From Candidatus Latescibacterota bacterium (GTDB lineage: Bacteria > JAAXHH01 > JACQVL01), in contig JACQVL010000339.1 of NCBI GenBank assembly GCA_016209865.1, forward strand, positions 1 to 9,913: DNA of 9,913 nucleotides. The letters are read 5' to 3'. The notes under the pieces are model-generated. The model searched no databases, was not told the origin of the DNA, and saw only the letters and a program-made list of their open reading frames with translations. Of the stretch, positions 2 to 8,181 are shown one piece after another. Positions within the stretch are counted from its first letter, which is position 1, and the number at the start of each line of letters is the position of its first letter. The position numbers and the translations under genes were made by a program.

Positions 2-115
2 CGCCGGGCAGATCAGGATATCGTCAACGTCCTCAAATCCAGGGTGGAATCCGATGAGAATACGTACATTCGCACCCGGGCGAGAGCGGTCTTAGAGGAG
101 ATCAAGCAACAATGA
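2..115 (+). CDS. C-terminal end of a probable HEAT-repeat protein (partial)
   Basis: An open frame enters from the left edge and ends at a TGA at 113-115, giving 37 residues of a protein's C-terminus. The last part (DENTYIRTRARAVLEEI) resembles the second helix of a HEAT repeat: an Asp-Asn-x-Tyr-Ile-Arg turn followed by an Ala/Leu-spaced helix. The stop overlaps the start of the next gene in an ATGA junction, so the two are probably translationally coupled. From general knowledge, DUF4097-type genes often follow a sigma factor and an anti-sigma or HEAT-containing protein; this fragment is too short to say whether that is the case here. The HEAT assignment is an inference from one repeat-like segment. 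Confidence 0.6.
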   Translation, partial: RRADQDIVNVLKSRVESDENTYIRTRARAVLEEIKQQ

Positions 116-1359
116 CCCGCCGCATCCGGCTGTTTCTGATCCTGTTGTGCTTCGCCGTCCGCCTGATGGGGATGTCCGCCCTGGCGGGAGAGGTCGAGAA
201 ACAGTCGAAGGACAGGAATCCCAACAGGAATCGTAACGTGAACCGTACCCGGTCGCTGGGAGAGAGCCGGTCTGAGTCGTTCTCCGTCAGCCCAGGCGGG
301 ACGCTGGACGTGTCGAGTGAGGTCGGGAGTATTCTCATCTCCGTGTGGGAGAAAAATCAGGTCGTCGTCCGGGTCCAGGGCATCGACCCGGATGACCTCG
401 ACCAGGTCAGGATGACCCAACTGGGCAGCACCGTCCGTGTGGAATACCATTCCTCCGGCCGGCGCCCGCGCCGGATGCGATTTGAGGTCAGCATCCCGTC
501 CCACTTCAACCTCGACCTTCGGACTGGCGGTGGCGACATCGAGCTGCAAGGGCCGCTCACTGGCGATCTCCGGGGCAAAACATCGGGCGGAGATGTCCTC
601 CTCGCCGACGTCAGCGGGAGGGTGGATATGTCAACCTCCGGCGGGAACATCCGGACGGGCAAGATTCAAGGAGAAGGATACCTCAAGACCTCCGGAGGGG
701 ACATCCGGGTGGAGATGGTCGGCGGGAATATGGACGTGTATACCTCCGGGGGGAACATCAGCGTCGGGAACGTCGGCAAGACGTTGAGGGCGCAGACCGC
801 CGGCGGGGACATCGAGATCGGGGATGTGGGCGGGGAAGCGACCGTCTCGACCGCGGGCGGGAATATTCAGGTGGGCAAGGTGTCCGGCAGGGCGACGTTG
901 AAGACGGCCGGGGGGGATATCGAGTTAAACGGGGGGAGCGGGATCGTTTCGGCCATCACCGCCGGGGGCAACATTACGCTCGACAACGTGTCCGGGTCCG
1001 TGGAGGCCAGGACGGTGGGCGGGGATGTGACGGCCGCACTCAGACCGAGTGGACAAGGGAGAAGCCGGCTGATCACCACAGGCGGTGAAGTCACCCTCTA
1101 CCTGCCGGCCAACGCGAAAGCGACGATTGAAGCGCGTATCCGTGTTCAAGGATACTGGAAGCGTGGAAGACGGTATAACCAGGATTACGAGATCCGATCC
1201 GACTTCAAGGCCGACTCGTACGAGCAGGATGACCGGCTCAGAGAGATCCGCGCGACGTACACGCTCAACGGCGGCGGTGAGACCATCTGGCTGGAGACAG
1301 TCGAGGGGAATATCGAGATTCGCAAGCTGGAATCGCGTCCCCGGCAGGATGAACGATAA
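112..1359 (+). CDS. secreted DUF4097-family beta-solenoid (putative adhesin-like) protein
   Basis: This 415-residue protein has a signal peptide: MTRR, a hydrophobic core (LFLILLCFAV), then SALA before Gly26, a plausible signal peptidase I site. A basic Asn/Arg-rich stretch follows (about residues 34-48). Residues 50-135 form the N-terminal part, and residues 138-327 carry eleven T-x-G-G-[DNE]-[IV] motifs, eight of the intervals being exactly 18 residues. This is the pattern of the DUF4097/DUF4098 'putative adhesin' beta-strand repeat family, which folds as a right-handed beta-solenoid. The C-terminal 90 residues are less repetitive and end with another such turn (TVEGNI). The protein should act in the periplasm or at the cell surface; the name 'adhesin' is a family label and no function is demonstrated. 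The ATG overlaps the upstream stop. It is convergent with the aminotransferase gene, 11 bp away. Confidence 0.85.
   Translation: MTRRIRLFLILLCFAVRLMGMSALAGEVEKQSKDRNPNRNRNVNRTRSLGESRSESFSVSPGGTLDVSSEVGSILISVWEKNQVVVRVQGIDPDDLDQVRMTQLGSTVRVEYHSSGRRPRRMRFEVSIPSHFNLDLRTGGGDIELQGPLTGDLRGKTSGGDVLLADVSGRVDMSTSGGNIRTGKIQGEGYLKTSGGDIRVEMVGGNMDVYTSGGNISVGNVGKTLRAQTAGGDIEIGDVGGEATVSTAGGNIQVGKVSGRATLKTAGGDIELNGGSGIVSAITAGGNITLDNVSGSVEARTVGGDVTAALRPSGQGRSRLITTGGEVTLYLPANAKATIEARIRVQGYWKRGRRYNQDYEIRSDFKADSYEQDDRLREIRATYTLNGGGETIWLETVEGNIEIRKLESRPRQDER
523..1092 (+). repeat. in-frame 54-bp coding repeats (18-residue beta-solenoid rungs)
   Basis: Motifs of the form T-x-G-G-[DNE]-[IV] begin at residues 138, 157, 175, 193, 211, 229, 247, 265, 283, 301 and 322 of the DUF4097 protein. 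From residue 157 to 301 the spacing is a constant 18 residues (54 bp). The fifth position of the motif alternates Asp and Asn through nine consecutive copies (157-301), suggesting that the unit of duplication was a pair of rungs. The second position changes from Ser (copies 157-211) to Ala (229-283), which also fits block duplication. Confidence 0.85.
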
Positions 1360-1399
1360 CGTTGGAACGTTCACACGTTCGAACGTTCGAACGTTAAAA
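1360..1399. repeat. tandem octamer array CGTTNNAA, copy 1 (5 units)
   Basis: Five consecutive 8-base units begin at 1360, 1368, 1376, 1384 and 1392: CGTTGGAA, CGTTCACA, CGTTCGAA, CGTTCGAA, CGTTAAAA. Positions 1375-1394 form a perfect 20-bp palindrome. The array begins directly after the TAA of the DUF4097 gene and runs into the 3' end of the convergent aminotransferase gene, so it spans the junction and contributes codons to the latter. The same octamer family occurs at 5140-5179. It could form a short hairpin on either transcript, but no T-run follows, so I do not call it an intrinsic terminator. Confidence 0.85.
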
Positions 1400-2516
1400 C
1401 GCGCTGCACCGCCGCCACGCCCACCCCCACCTTGAACTGATAGCCCAAATACGCCAGTCCCATCTCGAGGGCGGATATCCCGACAACCGCGTGGAATTCG
1501 TCCGCGTACCCCAGATGGGCGATCCGCACGATCTTCCCCTTCAGATGATCCAGACCGCCGCCCATGATGATCCCGTACCGCGCCTTGAGGTGCTTGAGGA
1601 GTTGATTGCCGTCGATCCCGGCGGGCAGGGTCACAGACGTGAGGACGTTCGACGGGCGTGTGGCGAAGAGTTCGAGACCGATCGCGCGGACGCCCGCGCG
1701 GGTGGCCTCGGCCAGGCGTGCATGACGGGCAAAGACGTTCGCTAACCCCTCGGCTTTGATCTGACGGAGCGCCTCGGCCAGCCCCATGATGAGGGTAATC
1801 GCAGGAGTGTACGGGTTCAGCCCTTTCTTCAGTGCCTCCTTCGCACGTTTGAAGCTCAGGTAGTACCGCGGTGAGGTTGCCCGATCCGACGCGGCCCACG
1901 CCCGCGGCCCGACACTGGCGAACGCCAATCCCGGCGGCAGCATCAGTCCTTTCTGCGAACCGGACACGACAACGTCCACATGCCAGTCGTCCGGACGGAG
2001 GTCGTTCGCCCCCAGCCCGCTGATGGCATCGACGACGAACAGCACGTCCCGGCCGCTCACCACCCGGCCGAGGGTCTCGATGTCGTGCAGGACGCCCGTT
2101 GACGTCTCGCTGTGGGTGGCAAAGACCGCCTTGATGCCTGATTCGCGGCTCAGGACGTCCGCGACGACGCTGGGATCGACGGCGTGGCCCCACTCCACGT
2201 CGATCGGGACGGCCTCGACCCCGTACGCGGCGCAGAGTTCCGCCCACCGGCCGCCGAATTTCCCCGCCCGGATGACGACCGCCCGGTCACCCGGCGATAA
2301 CAGGTTGGCGACCGCCGCTTCCATCGCCCCCGTCCCGGAGGCGGTGAACGTCAACACGTCGTGCGCCGTCTGGAACACGTACTTGAGGTGCTCCGTCACT
2401 TCCTCGAACAGCCGGACGTACTCGGGCGACCGGTGATTCAGGATGGGCTCCGACATCTTCAACGTCACGTGAGGCGGAACGGGAGTCGGACCCGGCGCGT
2501 AGATGTAGGATCTCAC
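1371..2516 (-). CDS. PLP-dependent class V aminotransferase (alanine-glyoxylate / serine-pyruvate type)
   Basis: This 381-residue fold-type I PLP enzyme belongs to the class V AGXT/serine-pyruvate aminotransferase family. The start is a GTG at 2514-2516 preceded by AGGAGA, and the protein opens with the family's YxxAPGPTPVPP motif. SGTGAMEAA (60-68) is the phosphate-binding loop, HSETSTGVLHD (135-145) the substrate/PLP segment, Asp163 (VVDAIS) should pair with the pyridine nitrogen, and Lys189 in GSQKG is the expected Schiff-base lysine. Members of this subgroup carry out glyoxylate, serine or aspartate transamination; substrate cannot be read from sequence. It is last in the dap gene run, 100 bp after dapH. 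The final residues (about TFERSNV) and the stop come from the CGTTNNAA array, so the native C-terminus probably lay near AAVQRVL. A link to serine/glycine metabolism is the default; a role in lysine synthesis is speculation from position. Confidence 0.88.
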   Translation of the reverse strand: MRSYIYAPGPTPVPPHVTLKMSEPILNHRSPEYVRLFEEVTEHLKYVFQTAHDVLTFTASGTGAMEAAVANLLSPGDRAVVIRAGKFGGRWAELCAAYGVEAVPIDVEWGHAVDPSVVADVLSRESGIKAVFATHSETSTGVLHDIETLGRVVSGRDVLFVVDAISGLGANDLRPDDWHVDVVVSGSQKGLMLPPGLAFASVGPRAWAASDRATSPRYYLSFKRAKEALKKGLNPYTPAITLIMGLAEALRQIKAEGLANVFARHARLAEATRAGVRAIGLELFATRPSNVLTSVTLPAGIDGNQLLKHLKARYGIIMGGGLDHLKGKIVRIAHLGYADEFHAVVGISALEMGLAYLGYQFKVGVGVAAVQRVLTFERSNV

Positions 2517-2534
2517 AAGGCTCTCCTACGGAGA

Positions 2535-2623
2535 GCAGTGAAGAGTTAAGAGTGAAAGGCAAAGAGAGCCAGTGGGATGCAATGTTTTTCACTCTTCACT
2601 CTACATTCTTCACTCTTCACTGC
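2535..2623. repeat. inverted heptamer array (AGTGAAG / TTCACTC family)
   Basis: The right arm has five heptamers from 2588 to 2622: TTCACTC, TTCACTC, TACATTC, TTCACTC, TTCACTG. The left arm from 2537 has the complementary type: AGTGAAG, AGTTAAG, AGTGAAA, then decaying units. The ends form a perfect 12-bp inverted repeat, GCAGTGAAGAGT (2535-2546) against ACTCTTCACTGC (2612-2623). The element fills nearly all of the dapH-aminotransferase spacer and could fold into an imperfect hairpin in the mRNA. The dapH stop codon (TGA, complement of 2617-2619) lies inside the last heptamer. There is no reading frame, transposase or target duplication that would make it a conventional insertion sequence. Confidence 0.85.
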
Positions 2624-3351
2624 TTTTTTGGCAGTTCTCGTAGCGCATCGACAATCTGTGTCTTCGCTTTCGTCCGGTCGTCGACGCGCTTGATGGCCCG
2701 CGCGGGCACACCGGCGACGACCGTCTCCGGGGGGACATCCTCGACCACCACCGCCCCGGCGGCCACGACCGCGCCCCGTCCCACCTCCACGCCCTCAAGG
2801 ATGACCGCGTTCGCCCCGACCATCACGTCATCCCCGATGACGACGGACTTCGCGCTGGGCGGCTCGACGACCCCGGCGACGACCGCGCCCGCCCCGATGT
2901 GACAGTTCGCCCCGATGATCGCCCGCCCGCCGACGACCGCGTTCATGTCGATCATCGTCCGCGGCCCGATGAACGCCCCGATGTTGATGACCGCCCCCAT
3001 CATGATGACGCACCCGCTGCCGATCGACACCCGATCCCGGATGATCGCCCCCGGCTCGATCCGGGCGTCGAGGGTGCGGATGTCCAGGAGGGGCACGGCG
3101 GAGTTCCGCCGGTCGTATTCGAGATGAGAATACTGGATCGTCTTGGCGTTGGCCTCCAGCAGCCGAGCCACCTGATCGCTCTCCCCGATGATGACCGGGT
3201 CCTGGTCGGGGTGGAAGACTTTCACCCGACCGGTTCCCTCAGGAAACGTCGTCAGCCGTCCCCGGATATACACTTTGACTGGGGTAGATTTCGGGCTTTC
3301 TTTGATGAACCGGATGATGCTCTCTGCGCTGTCGAGGTCAACGTCCGCCAT
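2617..3351 (-). CDS. dapH: 2,3,4,5-tetrahydropyridine-2,6-dicarboxylate N-acetyltransferase
   Basis: DapH transfers acetyl from acetyl-CoA to tetrahydrodipicolinate, giving N-acetyl-L-2-amino-6-oxopimelate in the acetylase branch of lysine/diaminopimelate synthesis. The 244-residue protein has the DapH N-terminal domain (STPVKVY at 22-28), then [10 protein letters not shown] (81-90), [10 protein letters not shown] (97-106) and a left-handed beta-helix of hexapeptide repeats with MIDMN (133-137), [19 protein letters not shown] (149-167) and VVAGVPA near the end. These match the Bacillus-type DapH I recall very closely; succinyl-type DapD lacks this N-terminal domain and these motifs. The ATG is preceded by GGAG seven bases upstream. 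It sits 60 bp downstream of dapB, in the same run as dapA. The stop codon falls inside a heptamer repeat, leaving a normal RELPKKQ end. Confidence 0.95.
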
Positions 3352-3382
3352 GATGATCTCCGTTGATTCGGTCTCACTCGGG

Positions 3383-3430
3383 GTATGGAAGTATGGGAGT
3401 GGGGTGACTCGTCACTCGTCACTCGTCACT
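3383..3430. repeat. composite short-unit array (GTATGGRA octamers then ACTCGTC heptamers)
   Basis: Three octamer-like units start at 3383, 3391 and 3399 (GTATGGAA, GTATGGGA, then a degraded GTGGGGTG). They run directly into three perfect heptamers ACTCGTC at 3407-3413, 3414-3420 and 3421-3427, plus a partial ACT. A lone CACTCG remnant lies at 3375-3380. The array occupies most of the dapB-dapH spacer and extends into dapB, whose last six residues and stop are read from it. Ribosome-binding sequence for dapH begins just beyond it at 3358-3361. Confidence 0.8.
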
Positions 3431-4227
3431 GTCTTGATGATGTCCGCCATCCCGTACAGGCCGGGGGGCTTGCCCTGCAGGAATCGGACTGCCCGGAGCG
3501 TCCCGTGCGCGAACGTCTCGACGCTGTGCGCCCGGTGGGTGATCTCCAGCCGCTCGCCCAGCCCGCCGAACATGACGGTGTGATCCCCGACGATGTCGCC
3601 GGCGCGGATGGCGTGGACGCCGATCTCCCCGGCCTGACGCGGCCCGACGCGGCCGTGCCGGCCGTGGACGACCTGGTCGGCTTCGGGACGTGCCCGTCCT
3701 TCTGTGATCGCGTTGATGATCGCTCGCGCCGTGCCGCTCGGCGCATCCTGTTTGAACCGGTGATGCGTCTCTAAAACCTCCACGTCGAACCCCTCGCCGA
3801 GGGCGCTCGACAGCATCCGGGCGATGGTGGTCAGGAGGTGCGCGCCGACCGACAGGTTGGGCGCGACGACGCAGGGGATTCGGGCGGTAGCGGTGGCGAG
3901 GGTCTGGGACTGTTCAGGCGACAAACCGGTGGTGCCGACGACGGCGGACAGGCCGCGGCTGACGGCAAGCTGGACATGAGCAACGGTCGCGTCCGGGGTG
4001 GAGAACTCGACGAGGGTGTCCCCGCGATCCAGGACGGACTCAAGGTCAGCGCTGATCGCCACACCGATTCGGCCCACCCCGATCAATTCTCCGTAGTCCA
4101 TCCCGAGGTACCCGCGCCCTGGCCGGCCGACCGCCCCCACGATCGTCATGTCGTCGCAGGCGGCCATGAGCTTTCCGACCGCGCGGCCCATCCGGCCAGC
4201 CGCCCCGGAGAGGATCACCCGGATCAT
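3412..4227 (-). CDS. dapB: 4-hydroxy-tetrahydrodipicolinate reductase
   Basis: DapB reduces hydroxy-tetrahydrodipicolinate, the DapA product, to tetrahydrodipicolinate with NAD(P)H. The 271-residue protein has the N-terminal Rossmann motif GAAGRMG (8-14), GTTG (98-101), and the signature ETHHRFKQDAPSGTA (153-167) with His155/His156 and Lys159 at the expected catalytic places. The C-terminal domain has GEIGVHAIRAGDIVGDHTV and the GERLEITHRA strand. Length is normal for the family. Its ATG overlaps the dapA stop by four bases (ATGA), indicating translational coupling. The C-terminal residues after about ADIIK (TVTSDE) are read from the ACTCGTC heptamer array, so the gene's natural end has apparently been replaced or extended by the repeat; this tail lies outside the conserved core and is probably harmless. 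Confidence 0.96.
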   Translation of the reverse strand: MIRVILSGAAGRMGRAVGKLMAACDDMTIVGAVGRPGRGYLGMDYGELIGVGRIGVAISADLESVLDRGDTLVEFSTPDATVAHVQLAVSRGLSAVVGTTGLSPEQSQTLATATARIPCVVAPNLSVGAHLLTTIARMLSSALGEGFDVEVLETHHRFKQDAPSGTARAIINAITEGRARPEADQVVHGRHGRVGPRQAGEIGVHAIRAGDIVGDHTVMFGGLGERLEITHRAHSVETFAHGTLRAVRFLQGKPPGLYGMADIIKTVTSDE

Positions 4228-5117
4228 GCGGCCTGCTCCGTCCCCGCCAGGAGACCGGCCTGGTCGATGGTCTCTCGGATGAGACGCAGGTTGGCGTCCG
4301 AAGGCGGGACGAGCGGCAGACGCATCTCCCCGGAGATCAGGCCCATCAAGGCCAGGGCGGCTTTCACCGGTCCCGGGTTCGTCTCGACGAACAGCGCCCG
4401 GCTGACGGGGAACAGATGGTTGTGCAGCCGGCGCGCCTCGGCAGAGTTGCCTTCCCGGAACGCGCGGACCATCCGGGCGACCTCACGGGGAGCGATGTTG
4501 GCGGTCACCGAGATCACCCCCTTGCCCCCCACGGCCAGGATAGGCAGGGTGAGCGAGTCGTCCCCGGACAGGACGGTGAACCCGTCCCCGCAGCGGTGGA
4601 CGATCGCGCTGACCTGGTCGAGGTTGCCGCTCGCCTCCTTGATGCCGACGATCTGATCGACCTGGGCCAGCTCGGCAACCGTCTCCGGCAGGAGGTTCGT
4701 GCCGGTGCGTGACGGAACATTATACATGATGATCGGCAGGTTCGTGCTGGCCGCGATCGCGCGATAATGGGCGACCAGCCCGCGCTGGGTCGGGCGGTTG
4801 TAGTAGGGGGTCACGATCAGCAGCCCATCGACGCCCGCAGACTGGGCGTACCGGGACATGGCGATCGTCTTGGCGGTGTCGTTCGTTCCGGCCCCTGCGA
4901 TCACCGGGATGCGTCCGCCGACCTCCTCGACAGTGATGGCGATGACTCGCTCGTACTCCTCATGGGAGAGGGTGACCGCCTCCCCGGTCGTCCCGCATGG
5001 CACGATCCCGTCGGTCTCGTGTTCCAGGTGCATCCGGAGCAAACGACGGAGGCCGGTCTCATCGATCTGTCCATCGCGGAAGGGGGTCACCAAAGCCACG
5101 ATCGATCCGGTCAACAT
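4224..5117 (-). CDS. dapA: 4-hydroxy-tetrahydrodipicolinate synthase
   Basis: DapA condenses pyruvate with aspartate semialdehyde, the first committed step to diaminopimelate and lysine. It is a 297-residue TIM-barrel aldolase. Thr43-Thr44 (CGTTGE) and Tyr132 (YNVPSRTG) form the proton relay, Arg137 binds substrate carboxylate, and Lys160 (GIKEASGN) is the Schiff-base lysine; these correspond, one residue offset, to the E. coli Thr44/Thr45, Tyr133, Arg138 and Lys161. The start ATG has a strong GAGGAGG upstream. Within the large DapA/N-acetylneuraminate lyase family, linkage to dapB and dapH makes the DapA assignment secure. The 62-bp spacer to the upstream TPR gene contains a CGTTNNAA array. 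Confidence 0.97.
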   Translation of the reverse strand: MLTGSIVALVTPFRDGQIDETGLRRLLRMHLEHETDGIVPCGTTGEAVTLSHEEYERVIAITVEEVGGRIPVIAGAGTNDTAKTIAMSRYAQSAGVDGLLIVTPYYNRPTQRGLVAHYRAIAASTNLPIIMYNVPSRTGTNLLPETVAELAQVDQIVGIKEASGNLDQVSAIVHRCGDGFTVLSGDDSLTLPILAVGGKGVISVTANIAPREVARMVRAFREGNSAEARRLHNHLFPVSRALFVETNPGPVKAALALMGLISGEMRLPLVPPSDANLRLIRETIDQAGLLAGTEQAA

Positions 5118-5139
5118 CGTCCTCGCCTCCTCGAAAAAA

Positions 5140-5179
5140 CGTTATAACGTTCGAACGTTCAAACGTTTAAACGTTCAGT
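5140..5179. repeat. tandem octamer array CGTTNNAA, copy 2 (5 units)
   Basis: Five consecutive units begin at 5140, 5148, 5156, 5164 and 5172: CGTTATAA, CGTTCGAA, CGTTCAAA, CGTTTAAA, CGTTCAGT. Contained palindromes are AACGTTCGAACGTT (5146-5159) and AACGTTTAAACGTT (5162-5175). The array has the same unit, unit length and copy number as the one at 1360-1399, but a different pattern of variable positions. It lies exactly between the TPR gene stop (5180-5182) and the dapA ribosome-binding site (about 5121-5133). Confidence 0.87.
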
Positions 5180-5848
5180 TTACAGTGCCGCAAGCGCCAC
5201 CTTGGCCTCCCGGACGTACCGGGAGGTCTTATAGGCCGTTACCACTTTGTCGTACATCTGCTTGGCCTGTGCCTTCTGCCCGGCAGCATCGTAACACCGT
5301 CCGGCGTCGATGAGGAGCCGGGGGGCGATGAAGGACGTCGCAAACTGTTCGGCCGTCTGCTGGTATCGCTTAGCCGCGTCGAGATATTTCCCTTGCTGTT
5401 CTCCACACGCCGCCATCCCGGCCATCGCGGAGATCGTCAGCAACTCGTCCTCGTCCTGATGGTCATTCAAGTATCGCTGGAAGGTTTTGAGTGCGTCGTC
5501 CGTACGGCCGACATGAAAGTAGGCGTTGCCCAACGCGATCGCCGCCTCCCCGGCGCTCCGCGTCCCGTCATGCTCCCTCAAGACTCGCTCATAGGCCGGA
5601 ATCGCTTCTTTGTACTGCCCTCGCTGAGCGGCGATCTGCGCGGGCGCGAGCAGGCGAGCCGCTTCCTCGTCGCGCGATTGCCTCATCCGGGAATACAGGT
5701 ACCCGGCTCCTCCCGCCACGACGACCACCCCAACGATGATAAACACCTGCTGGACGTGCCGGAGCAGGTAATCACTCGCGCGATAGACGAATTCCACGAA
5801 CGTATCATGCTTCACTTCTCGTCGTTGCAGTTTCTTCCTGACCGCCAC
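5180..5848 (-). CDS. membrane-anchored tetratricopeptide-repeat protein
   Basis: The protein has 222 residues when read from the GTG at 5846-5848, which is preceded by GGAGGG at good spacing. An in-frame ATG at 5957-5959 would add 37 residues but lies inside the promoter -35 element and is rejected. A basic, charged N-terminus (about 1-33) is followed by one membrane segment (FIIVGVVVVAGGAGYLY, about 36-52), then helical repeats: QYKEAIPAYERVL, RTDDALKTFQRYL, KYLDAAKRYQQTAEQF and QKAQAKQMYDKVV each look like the second half of a TPR. This architecture (short cytoplasmic tail, single anchor, TPR domain in the periplasm) resembles the YfgM/TPR_21 type; partners are unknown. It is the first gene of the presumed operon leading to dapA. 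Its role beside lysine genes is not evident. Confidence 0.8.
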   Translation of the reverse strand: MAVRKKLQRREVKHDTFVEFVYRASDYLLRHVQQVFIIVGVVVVAGGAGYLYSRMRQSRDEEAARLLAPAQIAAQRGQYKEAIPAYERVLREHDGTRSAGEAAIALGNAYFHVGRTDDALKTFQRYLNDHQDEDELLTISAMAGMAACGEQQGKYLDAAKRYQQTAEQFATSFIAPRLLIDAGRCYDAAGQKAQAKQMYDKVVTAYKTSRYVREAKVALAAL

Positions 5849-5931
5849 TGCGTTTCCCTCCGATATCACGGATGACCCTGATGAAACAACCGGACGACAC
5901 CGCTCCCATCCCCACCCGTCACTCATAGGGC

Positions 5932-5959
5932 AATATAGGAAGGAGAGACCGGAAGTCAA
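5932..5959 (-). promoter_or_regulatory. sigma-70-like promoter for the TPR-dap operon
   Basis: Read on the minus strand, TTGACT (5954-5959) and TATATT (5932-5937) are separated by 16 bp, close to the sigma-70 consensus. Transcription would begin near 5925, giving a leader of about 77 nt before the GTG start of the TPR gene. No T-box, lysine riboswitch or leader peptide was recognised in that leader. This is a sequence prediction only. Confidence 0.6.
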
Positions 5960-5994
5960 GCGGTTTCCTGTGTCATCTGTAGATCACTTTTCAC

Positions 5995-6022
5995 TTGACA
6001 AACAATCGCAGTCGCGTATCTT
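5995..6022 (+). promoter_or_regulatory. sigma-70-like promoter for the ilvBNC-leuA operon
   Basis: TTGACA (5995-6000, a perfect consensus -35) and TATCTT (6017-6022) are 16 bp apart. The predicted start near 6029 leaves a leader of about 290 nt before ilvB, unusually long and therefore likely regulatory. The two divergent -35 elements are only 35 bp apart (5960-5994), so one bound regulator could affect both operons. I see no convincing operator palindrome in that interval. Confidence 0.6.
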
Positions 6023-6105
6023 ACGGAAACATCATGATGATAGCATTGATCGGTTCGATGTCCTGTCCAGGTCGTTCCTCATCTCTCTTCGGACACGCGA
6101 CAGAC

Positions 6106-6183
6106 ATGCCAATCGGACGCACCCTTGTCTTACTACTTCCTCTCCTCTTATGGAGCCTTGTGGGATTCCCTGTCCCGCTGTAA
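6106..6183 (+). CDS. putative Leu/Val-rich leader peptide of the ilv operon
   Basis: A 25-codon frame, ATG at 6106-6108 and TAA at 6181-6183, encodes a peptide in which 9 of 25 residues are Leu and 3 are Val, nearly all in the last 19 codons; the core reads TLVLLLPLLLWSLVG. Codons such as TTA and CTA, which should be rare at this GC content, are included. Upstream in-frame ATGs at 6034 and 6037 would give about 49 residues, and neither start has a strong ribosome-binding site. Position between the promoter and ilvB, composition, and a stop codon located inside a hairpin loop match leader peptides of attenuated branched-chain operons. The alternative is a chance hydrophobic frame. Translation is not proven. 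Confidence 0.45.
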   Translation: MPIGRTLVLLLPLLLWSLVGFPVPL

Positions 6184-6248
6184 GGGAATCGCCGGACGCG
6201 CTCCATTCCCCAGTCCGTTTCCGAATTCGTGTCACTCCACCTGTGGAG
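6162..6248 (+). promoter_or_regulatory. candidate attenuator: competing RNA hairpins in the ilv leader
   Basis: GATTCCC (6164-6170) pairs perfectly with GGGAATC (6184-6190), extendable by GG:CC around one bulged base; the leader-peptide TAA (6181-6183) lies in its loop. The same GGGAAT (6184-6189) also pairs perfectly with ATTCCC (6205-6210), with an inner GGA:TCC stem, so the two structures exclude each other. CGGAC (6193-6197) can also pair with GTCCG (6213-6217), followed by a short TTT. A separate small hairpin CTCCAC/GTGGAG occupies 6235-6248. Stalling of a ribosome on the Leu codons would cover the first arm and favour the second hairpin. No long U-run follows, so the outcome may be Rho-dependent or translational rather than classic intrinsic termination. 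Positions 6249-6304 show nothing further. Confidence 0.4.
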
Positions 6249-6318
6249 AATGAATCAACTCAAGAACCGAGGATGCCGCATCTTGCATACCGGGTCGGTC
6301 GCATAAAGGGGGTCTCAC

Positions 6319-8055
6319 ATGGAATTGACAGGTGCTGAAATCGTCGCTGAGTGTTTGCTCAGGGAGAAGGTGGACCTCGTGTTTGGCCTGCCGGGCGGTG
6401 TGGTCATCCCCCTGTATGACGTGCTCCGGCGGACGCCCAAGATCCGCCATATCCTCGTCCGTCACGAGCAGGGCGCGGCGCACATGGCGGACGGGTACGC
6501 GCGCGCGACCGGGAAACCCGGCGTCTGCATCGTCTCCTCAGGGCCGGGGGCGACGAATACCGTGACCGGCATCGCCACCGCATACATGGACTCGATCCCG
6601 ATGGTGATCTTTACCGGCCAGGTGCCGGTCCATCTCATCGGCAACGACGCGTTCCAGGAGGCGGACATCGTCGGGATCACCCGGCCGATCACGAAGCATA
6701 ACTATCTGGTGAAGGAAGCCGGGGAAATCGCTGACGCGATCGCGGAAGCGTTCTACATCGCCACGACGGGCCGGCCGGGGCCGGTGTTGATCGACCTGCC
6801 CAAAGACGTGCAGGTCATGAAGGCGAAGTTTGAGTACCCTGAGCGCCCGCACGTCCGGGGGTACCGGCCGACGTATGAAGGCCATCCAGGCCAGATCAAG
6901 AAGGCGGTCGAGATGATCGTCGCGTCGAAACGGCCGGTGATCTACGTCGGCGGCGGGGCGATCCTCTCCGGGGCGGCCGACGAGGTTCGTGACCTCGCCT
7001 ATCGCGCGCGCGCGCCGGTGACGACGACCCTCATGGGTCTGGGCGCCTTCCCGGAGACCGACTCGCTCTCCCTCAAGATGTTGGGTATGCACGGGACGTG
7101 GTACGCCAACACCGCGGTCATGCAGTGTGACCTGCTGATCGCCATCGGGGCCCGGTTCGACGACCGGGTGACGGGCAAGTTGTCCGATTTCTCCCTCCAG
7201 TCCAAGAAGATCCACATCGTCATCGACCCGGCGGATATCGGGAAGAATGTGCAGGTCGACCTGCCGATCGTGGGGGATGTGAAACGGGTGCTCCAGCAAC
7301 TCAACCCGCTCATCACCAAACCGTTGGGTACCGACGAGTGGCTCCAGCAGATCGAAGTCTGGAAGCGGGAGCATCCGTTGACGTACGAGAGCACGGCCAG
7401 TTGCCATGAGGAAGGTCTGGACGGTGGGTCTGACGGCACTGCTCCCCCCTCGCACATCCCGCTCCGGGCGCAGTACGTCATCCAGAAGATCGGAGAGATG
7501 ACGCACGGGGACGCGATCGTGGTCACAGACGTCGGACAGCATCAGATGTGGGCGGCGCAGTGGTATGGGTTCACGAAACCCCGGAGCATGATTACCTCCG
7601 GGGGACTGGGGACGATGGGGTTCGGCCTGCCGGCCGCGATCGGGGTCGCCTTCGCTGTCAAGGACCGGCCGATCGTCGTCATCAGCGGGGATGGCAGCAT
7701 CCAGATGAACATCCAGGAAATGGCCACCGCGGTCGGCTGCCGGCTGCCGATCAAGATCGCCCTGTTGAACAACGGCTATCTCGGCATGGTCCGCCAGTGG
7801 CAAGACCTCTTCTACGGCAAACGGTTCTCGGAAGTCGACCTGCGGGAATCGAACCCGGACTTCGTCAAGCTGGCGGAAGCCTTCGGCGCGGTCGGGCTGC
7901 GGGTGTTTAAAGACGAGGACGTGGAAGAAGCGTTCGCGGAAGCGATGAAAGTCACGGATCGTCCCGTCCTGATCGATTTCGTCATCGGGGAGGAGGATAA
8001 TGTCTTCCCGATGATCCCGGCTGGCGCGGCTGCCCATGAGATGCGGGAGAGTTGA
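6319..8055 (+). CDS. ilvB: acetolactate synthase large (catalytic) subunit
   Basis: This ThDP-dependent enzyme condenses two pyruvates to acetolactate, or pyruvate with 2-ketobutyrate, opening valine/leucine and isoleucine synthesis. The 578-residue protein has the N-terminal pyrimidine-binding domain with GLPGG (23-27) and catalytic Glu50 in HEQGAAHMADGYARATG, a central FAD-type domain with IGARFDDRVTGK, and the ThDP-Mg motif running from GDGS (457-460) to NN (484-485). The following NGYLGMVRQWQ and the anabolic-type C-terminus separate it from catabolic, FAD-independent AlsS enzymes and from other ThDP family members. A somewhat Gly/Ser/Pro-rich linker (about 360-380) precedes the C-terminal domain. 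The ATG is preceded by AAGGGGG at six bases. It heads the ilvB-ilvN-ilvC-leuA operon. Confidence 0.96.
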   Translation: MELTGAEIVAECLLREKVDLVFGLPGGVVIPLYDVLRRTPKIRHILVRHEQGAAHMADGYARATGKPGVCIVSSGPGATNTVTGIATAYMDSIPMVIFTGQVPVHLIGNDAFQEADIVGITRPITKHNYLVKEAGEIADAIAEAFYIATTGRPGPVLIDLPKDVQVMKAKFEYPERPHVRGYRPTYEGHPGQIKKAVEMIVASKRPVIYVGGGAILSGAADEVRDLAYRARAPVTTTLMGLGAFPETDSLSLKMLGMHGTWYANTAVMQCDLLIAIGARFDDRVTGKLSDFSLQSKKIHIVIDPADIGKNVQVDLPIVGDVKRVLQQLNPLITKPLGTDEWLQQIEVWKREHPLTYESTASCHEEGLDGGSDGTAPPSHIPLRAQYVIQKIGEMTHGDAIVVTDVGQHQMWAAQWYGFTKPRSMITSGGLGTMGFGLPAAIGVAFAVKDRPIVVISGDGSIQMNIQEMATAVGCRLPIKIALLNNGYLGMVRQWQDLFYGKRFSEVDLRESNPDFVKLAEAFGAVGLRVFKDEDVEEAFAEAMKVTDRPVLIDFVIGEEDNVFPMIPAGAAAHEMRES

Positions 8056-8181
8056 CTGGAGAATGGGAACTGGGAACTGGAAAATGGGAAATGGGAAAGA
8101 GGAACTGGAAAAGACGATCAGAGTGAGGCCGTTCCCCTCTTTTTCCTGTTCCTGGCCATTTTCCATTTTCCATTTTCTGTG
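8055..8181. repeat. inverted heptamer array (AMTGGRA / TYCCAKT family)
   Basis: Eight consecutive heptamers run from 8055 to 8110: ACTGGAG, AATGGGA, ACTGGGA, ACTGGAA, AATGGGA, AATGGGA, AAGAGGA, ACTGGAA. After a spacer (8111-8138) complementary-type units run to about 8181, including two perfect TTCCATT (8161-8167, 8168-8174). TGGAAAATGG (8078-8087) has perfect complements at 8156-8165 and 8163-8172, and 8101-8113 pairs almost fully with 8139-8152, so a long imperfect hairpin is possible in the ilvB-ilvN mRNA. The array starts on the last base of the ilvB stop and ends just before the ilvN ribosome-binding site (AGGGAG, 8185-8190). Confidence 0.87.

Follow-up and report, generated by a model that had tools for sequence, protein, structure and literature searches.

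The STRR heptamers of filamentous cyanobacteria are tandem and intergenic, with several families per genome, and in these traits they resemble the arrays of 7- and 8-base units that lie between the genes of a 9,913-bp contig (JACQVL010000339.1, hereafter the window) from the draft genome of a Candidatus Latescibacterota bacterium. We know of no convergent-pair rule or five-core cap for the STRR sequences. The initial annotation of the window took them as the nearest known analogue; kinship with heptamer repeats stands, but the nearest system is the GGGAATC heptamer of Xanthomonas. That heptamer forms 186 arrays, typically of four units and including about 70 convergent pairs, which lie near or overlap stop codons and are rare between divergent genes (PMC4692102). 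Transcripts start or stop more often at those arrays capable of forming G-quadruplexes, and the authors interpret them as quadruplex repeats, having found no tie to mobile elements; the Nostoc analogue is GGGGA(C/T)T (PMC4692102). In Beggiatoaceae, TAACTGA forms dispersed intergenic heptamer direct repeats of 2-6 copies, mostly forward and upstream of start codons, with one inverted case (PMC4679880). Many bacteria have an excess of heptamers among their simple sequence repeats, and one proposal invokes a polymerase footprint of 7 bp (PMC4692102, PMC4679880). The literature that we searched on heptamers, Nitrospira, and foldback elements holds nothing nearer than the Xanthomonas report.

The window arrays were located with Tandem Repeats Finder (TRF), which recovers 7- or 8-base arrays at all five spacers named in the initial annotation, and these five are a local sample of short repeats that occur throughout the genome. 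The host genome is a fragmented draft of 3.75 Mb, 83% complete, in which repeats may be under-assembled; stretches totaling 748 kb were sampled at first, and later 968 kb, and gene calls, made with a simple codon model, are approximate. In the 748-kb sample, 125 arrays with a period of 7 or 8 lie in spacers of at least 30 bp, compared with 0 in each of ten dinucleotide shuffles, which rules out a chance origin. Exact 4-mer cores recurring at least four times are in excess at period 7 (438 vs 42) and period 8 (98 vs 48), with no excess at periods 5, 6, 9, 10, or 11; these counts take in six masked contigs, which add an equal background to both columns. Array density is 317 per Mb (contigs chosen for a match left out), and at least 26 units recur in this one genome, in keeping with the earlier proposal of a genome-wide process with several coexisting families. 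Octamer families are present as well, whereas Xanthomonas has one G-rich family. Arrays are found in 94 of the 250 co-directional spacers of at least 30 bp (50 of 89 at lengths of 100-200 bp) and in only 4 of 37 divergent spacers. The scarcity of arrays in divergent spacers, as in Xanthomonas, accords with the earlier remark that the promoter region lacks them, but the claim that every within-operon spacer above 30 bp has one does not survive these counts, and it already fails in the window, where no array lies in the 35 bp between ilvN and ilvC.

The main organization of the arrays, absent from the initial account, is inverted convergent pairing. Among neighboring arrays of like period within 400 bp, there are 70 inverted pairs of one family and 2 direct pairs, a number of convergent pairs like that in a Xanthomonas genome; overlapping rows in the pair listing can count one locus twice, and 84 elements are left after de-duplication, with about 40% of arrays lying in inverted same-family pairs. 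Each family with several pairs shows a single polarity in which the G-rich strands converge, and the order of the arms is fixed (AGTGACG...CGTCACT, AAGGACG...CGTCCTT, GGATTTT...AAAATCC, AGTGAAG...CTTCACT, and those beginning CGGGATT... and CAGGGGT...). When the whole genome was searched by pattern, five loci had AGTGACN arms in convergent order and none had them reversed. In 79 elements G outnumbers C in the left arm; in 3, C outnumbers G. Read in the sense of the mRNA, arrays near stops are G-rich (85:13) and those near starts are C-rich (65:7; P = 1.6e-25), just as the G-rich strand of the Xanthomonas repeat is sense near stops and antisense near starts. In most cases no more than 12 bp separate the stop codon from the start of the first arm, which upholds the earlier placement of arrays next to stop codons, and the second arm ends a median of about 17 bp ahead of the next start; the element therefore fills the gap between the stop codon and the ribosome-binding site. 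As in Xanthomonas, the arrays are intergenic between aligned open reading frames (ORFs) and overlap ORF ends, with stop codons inside arrays in 49 of 740 sampled genes. Element interiors range from 7 to about 220 bp. Separately, a REP-like palindrome, TCATTCCCGCGAAAGCGGGAATCCAT, is present within interiors of several heptamer families (L028:4921-5086, L038:12783-12906, L049:1900-2029, L063:4790-4966, and others), and looks as if it had been inserted there independently.

When aligned in phase, the units resolve into a constant core of 4-5 bases followed by about three looser bases (AGTG+NNN, GATT+NNN, CGGG+NNN, CAGG+NNN, AAGG+NNN, and ACGTT+NNN), although the latter are not free, each family having its preferred ones. 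There are five cores in 11 of 20 ACGTT arrays, four or five in 36 of 43 GATT arrays, and four in 48 of 92 AGTG arrays, in which a partial AGT usually comes next. No more than five exact cores occur in the families examined, apart from one exception having seven, and TRF copy numbers peak at 4.0-4.5 units; a conserved core in about four heptamer units is likewise typical of Xanthomonas. This structure bears on the suggestion, made in the initial annotation, of a spreading or slippage process behind the arrays. A local origin by replication slippage or template switching, with the polymerase favoring a 7-bp step, would fit the over-representation of heptamers and the proposed polymerase footprint, the independence of unit variants between arms, and the stop codons within arrays. 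Nonetheless, slippage-type repeats have open-ended copy-number distributions, whereas here length is capped at about 4.4-5 cores without a tail, which argues against open-ended slippage, and single units recur with one polarity at dozens of unlinked places, so that dispersal is needed. We consider slippage quite improbable as the source of the arrays.

The same core, looser spacer, constant pitch, and cap near five could also reflect binding sites, with the cores bound by a multimeric DNA- or RNA-binding protein (nucleoid-associated, partition, or Rho-like) that sets both the five-core length and the strand rule. Heptad-binding systems are known (pSM19035 parS and heptameric SARP sites), and different families share the window spacer at 3383-3430, so that pitch may outweigh pairing. 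However, at least 26 units would call for equally many specificities or for a reader of pitch only, placement tracks gene ends, and no candidate protein was identified; we regard this explanation as unlikely. Quadruplex formation, as proposed for Xanthomonas and Nostoc, may hold for a subset; the layout is the same as in Xanthomonas (PMC4692102) and the CGGG, CAGGGG, and TGGG families have G-runs. The commonest families (AGTGACN, GATTNNN, AAGGACN, and ACGTTNNN), unlike GGGAATC with its GGGA core, have the same architecture without GGG runs, and quadruplexes are therefore not the general basis of the arrays, for which they are a very improbable explanation.

Comparison with relatives suggests that the arrays add DNA. 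It covers six spacers, a small sample, whose flanking genes have matching counterparts in relatives. Where the host has 139, 161, and 186 bp with an element, relatives have 0-5, 19-36, and 23 bp, respectively, and the 162-bp ilvB-ilvN spacer of the window corresponds to spacers of 31-131 bp; because array-bearing spacers are longer than in relatives at most of the six gene pairs, the arrays look like insertions. Three tandem AGTGACN units occur 345 times in this genome and in none of the order's 15 other genomes (the phylum sample being 16 genomes, all of one order), as expected from lineage-specific dispersal. Array density in sister genomes is 0 per Mb in G001 and G002, 13 in G011, and 107 in G013. 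The last of these (stretches L227-L238, 51% GC) has different 7- and 8-base units (AATCACC and AAATCACC), and no convergent pairs were detected in the part sampled. The ilvB-ilvN spacer of two relatives (L096 and L102) contains a short GC-rich hairpin, GGCCGGGCGGATCGTCCCGGC, present twice in L102, which suggests another lineage-specific intergenic repeat.

We tentatively favor the reading that the arrays represent a non-coding foldback repeat, dispersed in many copies and of the general REP/MITE type. In a full copy, two convergent arms would flank a short interior that is for the most part unrelated to other interiors, and each arm would repeat a core of 4-5 bases every 7 or 8 bp to a fixed length of about 31 bp. 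The pre-formed element may be copied by a putative trans-acting enzyme that recognizes the iterated cores, and both whole copies and single arms would have inserted into the short stretch that separates a stop codon from the ribosome-binding site after it and persisted there, where added DNA is presumably least harmful and insertions would be close to neutral. Like REP sequences and BIMEs, these are dispersed foldback repeats in intercistronic and convergent spacers. Like MITEs, they are short and non-coding, with terminal inverted repeats, lineage-specific copies, and spacers longer than most orthologs tested. They share with the Beggiatoaceae TAACTGA repeats a dispersed intergenic heptamer character, but they lie on the stop-codon side and in convergent pairs.

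Several observations weigh against this reading. Of 277 arrays, 162 lie outside any detected pair; a 139-bp element-bearing spacer has a counterpart nearly as long, at 123 bp, in a relative, and one further array occupies a spacer of short length in host and relative alike. Two AGTGAAG elements share an interior, but most interiors are unrelated apart from the separate REP-like motif, unlike those of a classic MITE. No target-site duplication is visible, with direct flank identity of 0.238 compared with 0.240 in shuffled flanks, and no match to the Y1 (RAYT) transposase family PF01797 was found in the 83% complete genome, with the control being positive. The arms of one element are also no more alike than arms of different elements. 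On this search of an incomplete genome, mobilization by a RAYT was rejected, and so was the formation of an arm by inverted duplication of its partner, the true partner being no better a match than a random arm; CGGG partners match less well than random arms (P = 0.002), the other families show no significant difference, and we draw no inference from this. With neither a RAYT-type transposase nor a target duplication found, with arms made of iterated cores, and with mostly unrelated interiors, the elements are not MITEs or REP sequences by definition.

Because the two arms share family and polarity, the elements have foldback potential, and the convergent arms could form a 3'-end hairpin that stabilizes, processes, or partly terminates the upstream mRNA, like intercistronic REP sequences. 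Folding is stronger than in shuffles for three of the five window spacers (z = -4.1, -2.0, and -2.2), including that of ilvB-ilvN (-49.3 kcal/mol, z = -2.0), and marginal for one; arrays lie after stop codons, between co-directional or convergent genes and seldom between divergent ones; A/T-rich flanks lie outside the arms; and Xanthomonas transcript starts and stops are commoner at quadruplex-forming heptamer arrays (PMC4692102). However, the spacer at 3352-3435 folds no better than shuffles (z = -0.29), and in every family tested an arm pairs equally well with its own partner or with the opposite arm of another element. Transition mismatches show no G.U excess in the transcribed strand (70 G.U vs 67 A.C). 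The absence of arm covariation and of a G.U excess leaves no sign of selection on paired RNA, and the role in mRNA folding proposed in the initial annotation thus finds no support. The second arm is followed by a weaker T-run than the A-run that precedes the first (2.45 vs 3.37 of 8, P = 0.0016), an asymmetry of the wrong sign for a directional terminator, which we reject; no intrinsic terminators were called at these array sites. Many arrays are single, and stemless neighbors of different families exist, as at 3383-3430. Some RNA effect may exist, but an RNA-level element seems a rather unlikely account of the arrays as a whole.

The arrays of the window and its annotated genes are collected in Table 1. 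The window arrays are 43-54% GC compared with 63% for the whole window, in agreement with the A/T enrichment relative to genes noted initially. Their assignment to intra-operon spacers does not hold for the array at 1358-1401, which lies between convergent genes. Its five perfect ACGTT cores are set apart by 3-base spacers that vary (GGA, CAC, CGA, and CGA). The aminotransferase ORF takes its final residues and its TGA from this array, which also touches the stop codon of the plus-strand LiaG-like gene. The stop codon is part of an array unit in the aminotransferase, dapB, and dapD genes: the dapD TGA is supplied by the first unit of its adjoining arm, and the array at 3407-3430 supplies the dapB stop (AGT GAC GAG TGA). 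Arrays thus extend into the 3' ends of the window genes at 1371-2516 and 3412-4227, providing stop codons and C-terminal residues, and they are not confined to spacers as first thought. No stable stem forms at 3383-3430, because the stretch at 3383-3406 and the neighboring array belong to different families. The array at 5137-5177 starts about 3 bp past the stop of the TPR gene and ends about 20 bp ahead of dapA. The dapA and dapB genes overlap and have no array between them. A scan of genome contigs with the TPR protein of the window yielded no relatives, and no Rfam match was found in the window.

Table 1. Genes and repeat arrays of the window
Feature	Coordinates	Strand	Basis and remarks
LiaG-like gene	112-1359	+	ORF; convergent with aminotransferase
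Octamer array, unit AACGTTNN	1358-1401		TRF; single array between convergent genes
Aminotransferase ORF	1371-2516	-	ORF; convergent with LiaG-like gene
Second, inverted arm of dapD-aminotransferase pair	2537..2556	+	TRF; AGTGAAG AGTTAAG AGTGAA on plus strand; upstream of aminotransferase start
Interior of dapD-aminotransferase element	2557..2587		84% identity over 31 bp with interior of another element of the genome, L019:5555
First arm after dapD stop	2588..2621	-	TRF; AGTGAAG AGTGAAG AATGTAG AGTGAAG AGTGAA
dapA-dapB-dapD run	2617..5117	-	NCBIfam TIGR00674, TIGR00036, TIGR03532 above cut-off; spacers array-bearing
Degenerate octamer-like stretch GTATGGAA GTATGGGA GTGGGG	3383..3406	+	Sequence inspection; start side of spacer next to 3407-3430 array
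AGTGACG x3 + AGT array	3407..3430	-	TRF (read as ACTCGTC); mostly within dapB 3' end
Octamer array, single	5137..5177		TRF; five exact ACGTT cores, spacers ATA, CGA, CAA, TAA
TPR gene, dapA, dapB, dapD, aminotransferase		-	Preceded by LiaG-like gene
ilvB, acetolactate synthase large subunit	6319..8055	+	NCBIfam TIGR00118, 800 bits; host gene for ortholog comparison
First arm after ilvB stop	8055..8108	+	TRF unit TGGGAA; TGGR + NNN heptamers (TGGGAAC, TGGAAAA, TGGGAAA)
Second, inverted arm upstream of ilvN	8156..8177	+	TRF; CCATTTT x3
ilvB-ilvN-ilvC run		+	Window gene layout

Three tandem AGTGACN units also occur in public genomes, in at least 110 stretches across many phyla. Because these loci were chosen by the AGTGACN pattern, only polarity, arm length, and neighbors are informative. 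Among the matches listed, the AGTG arm comes first, with the polarity of the host genome, in 13 of 13 cases in which AGTGACN arrays on opposite strands are neighbors. Arm lengths of 30-31 bp are frequent there, and Pyrinomonadaceae and other Acidobacteria have several unit families next to one another. Two loci in Pyrinomonadaceae (L130:4166-4328 and L133:7467-7610) are nested, an AGTGACA pair having another family's pair (GTGAATC or AATCGTG) inside it. A 417-bp tandem array of ACAAGTG in Clostridium sp. UBA701 (L112:4304-4720) is unlike the capped arms of the host genome. It is conceivable, although we hold it as doubtful, that a broad class of bacterial intergenic elements exists in several phyla, with arms of about five cores at 7- or 8-bp pitch separated by loose 3-base spacers, G-rich strands converging, placement at stops, many families, and a putative enzyme that sets arm length.

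The over-representation of heptamers in bacterial spacers has been known without a settled mechanism, with slippage and quadruplexes the explanations offered so far. That more than 20 units share one architecture, convergent, capped, and flush with stop codons, argues against both as general explanations, and the rules of polarity, cap, and position are a guide to finding the enzyme or binding protein behind the arrays.

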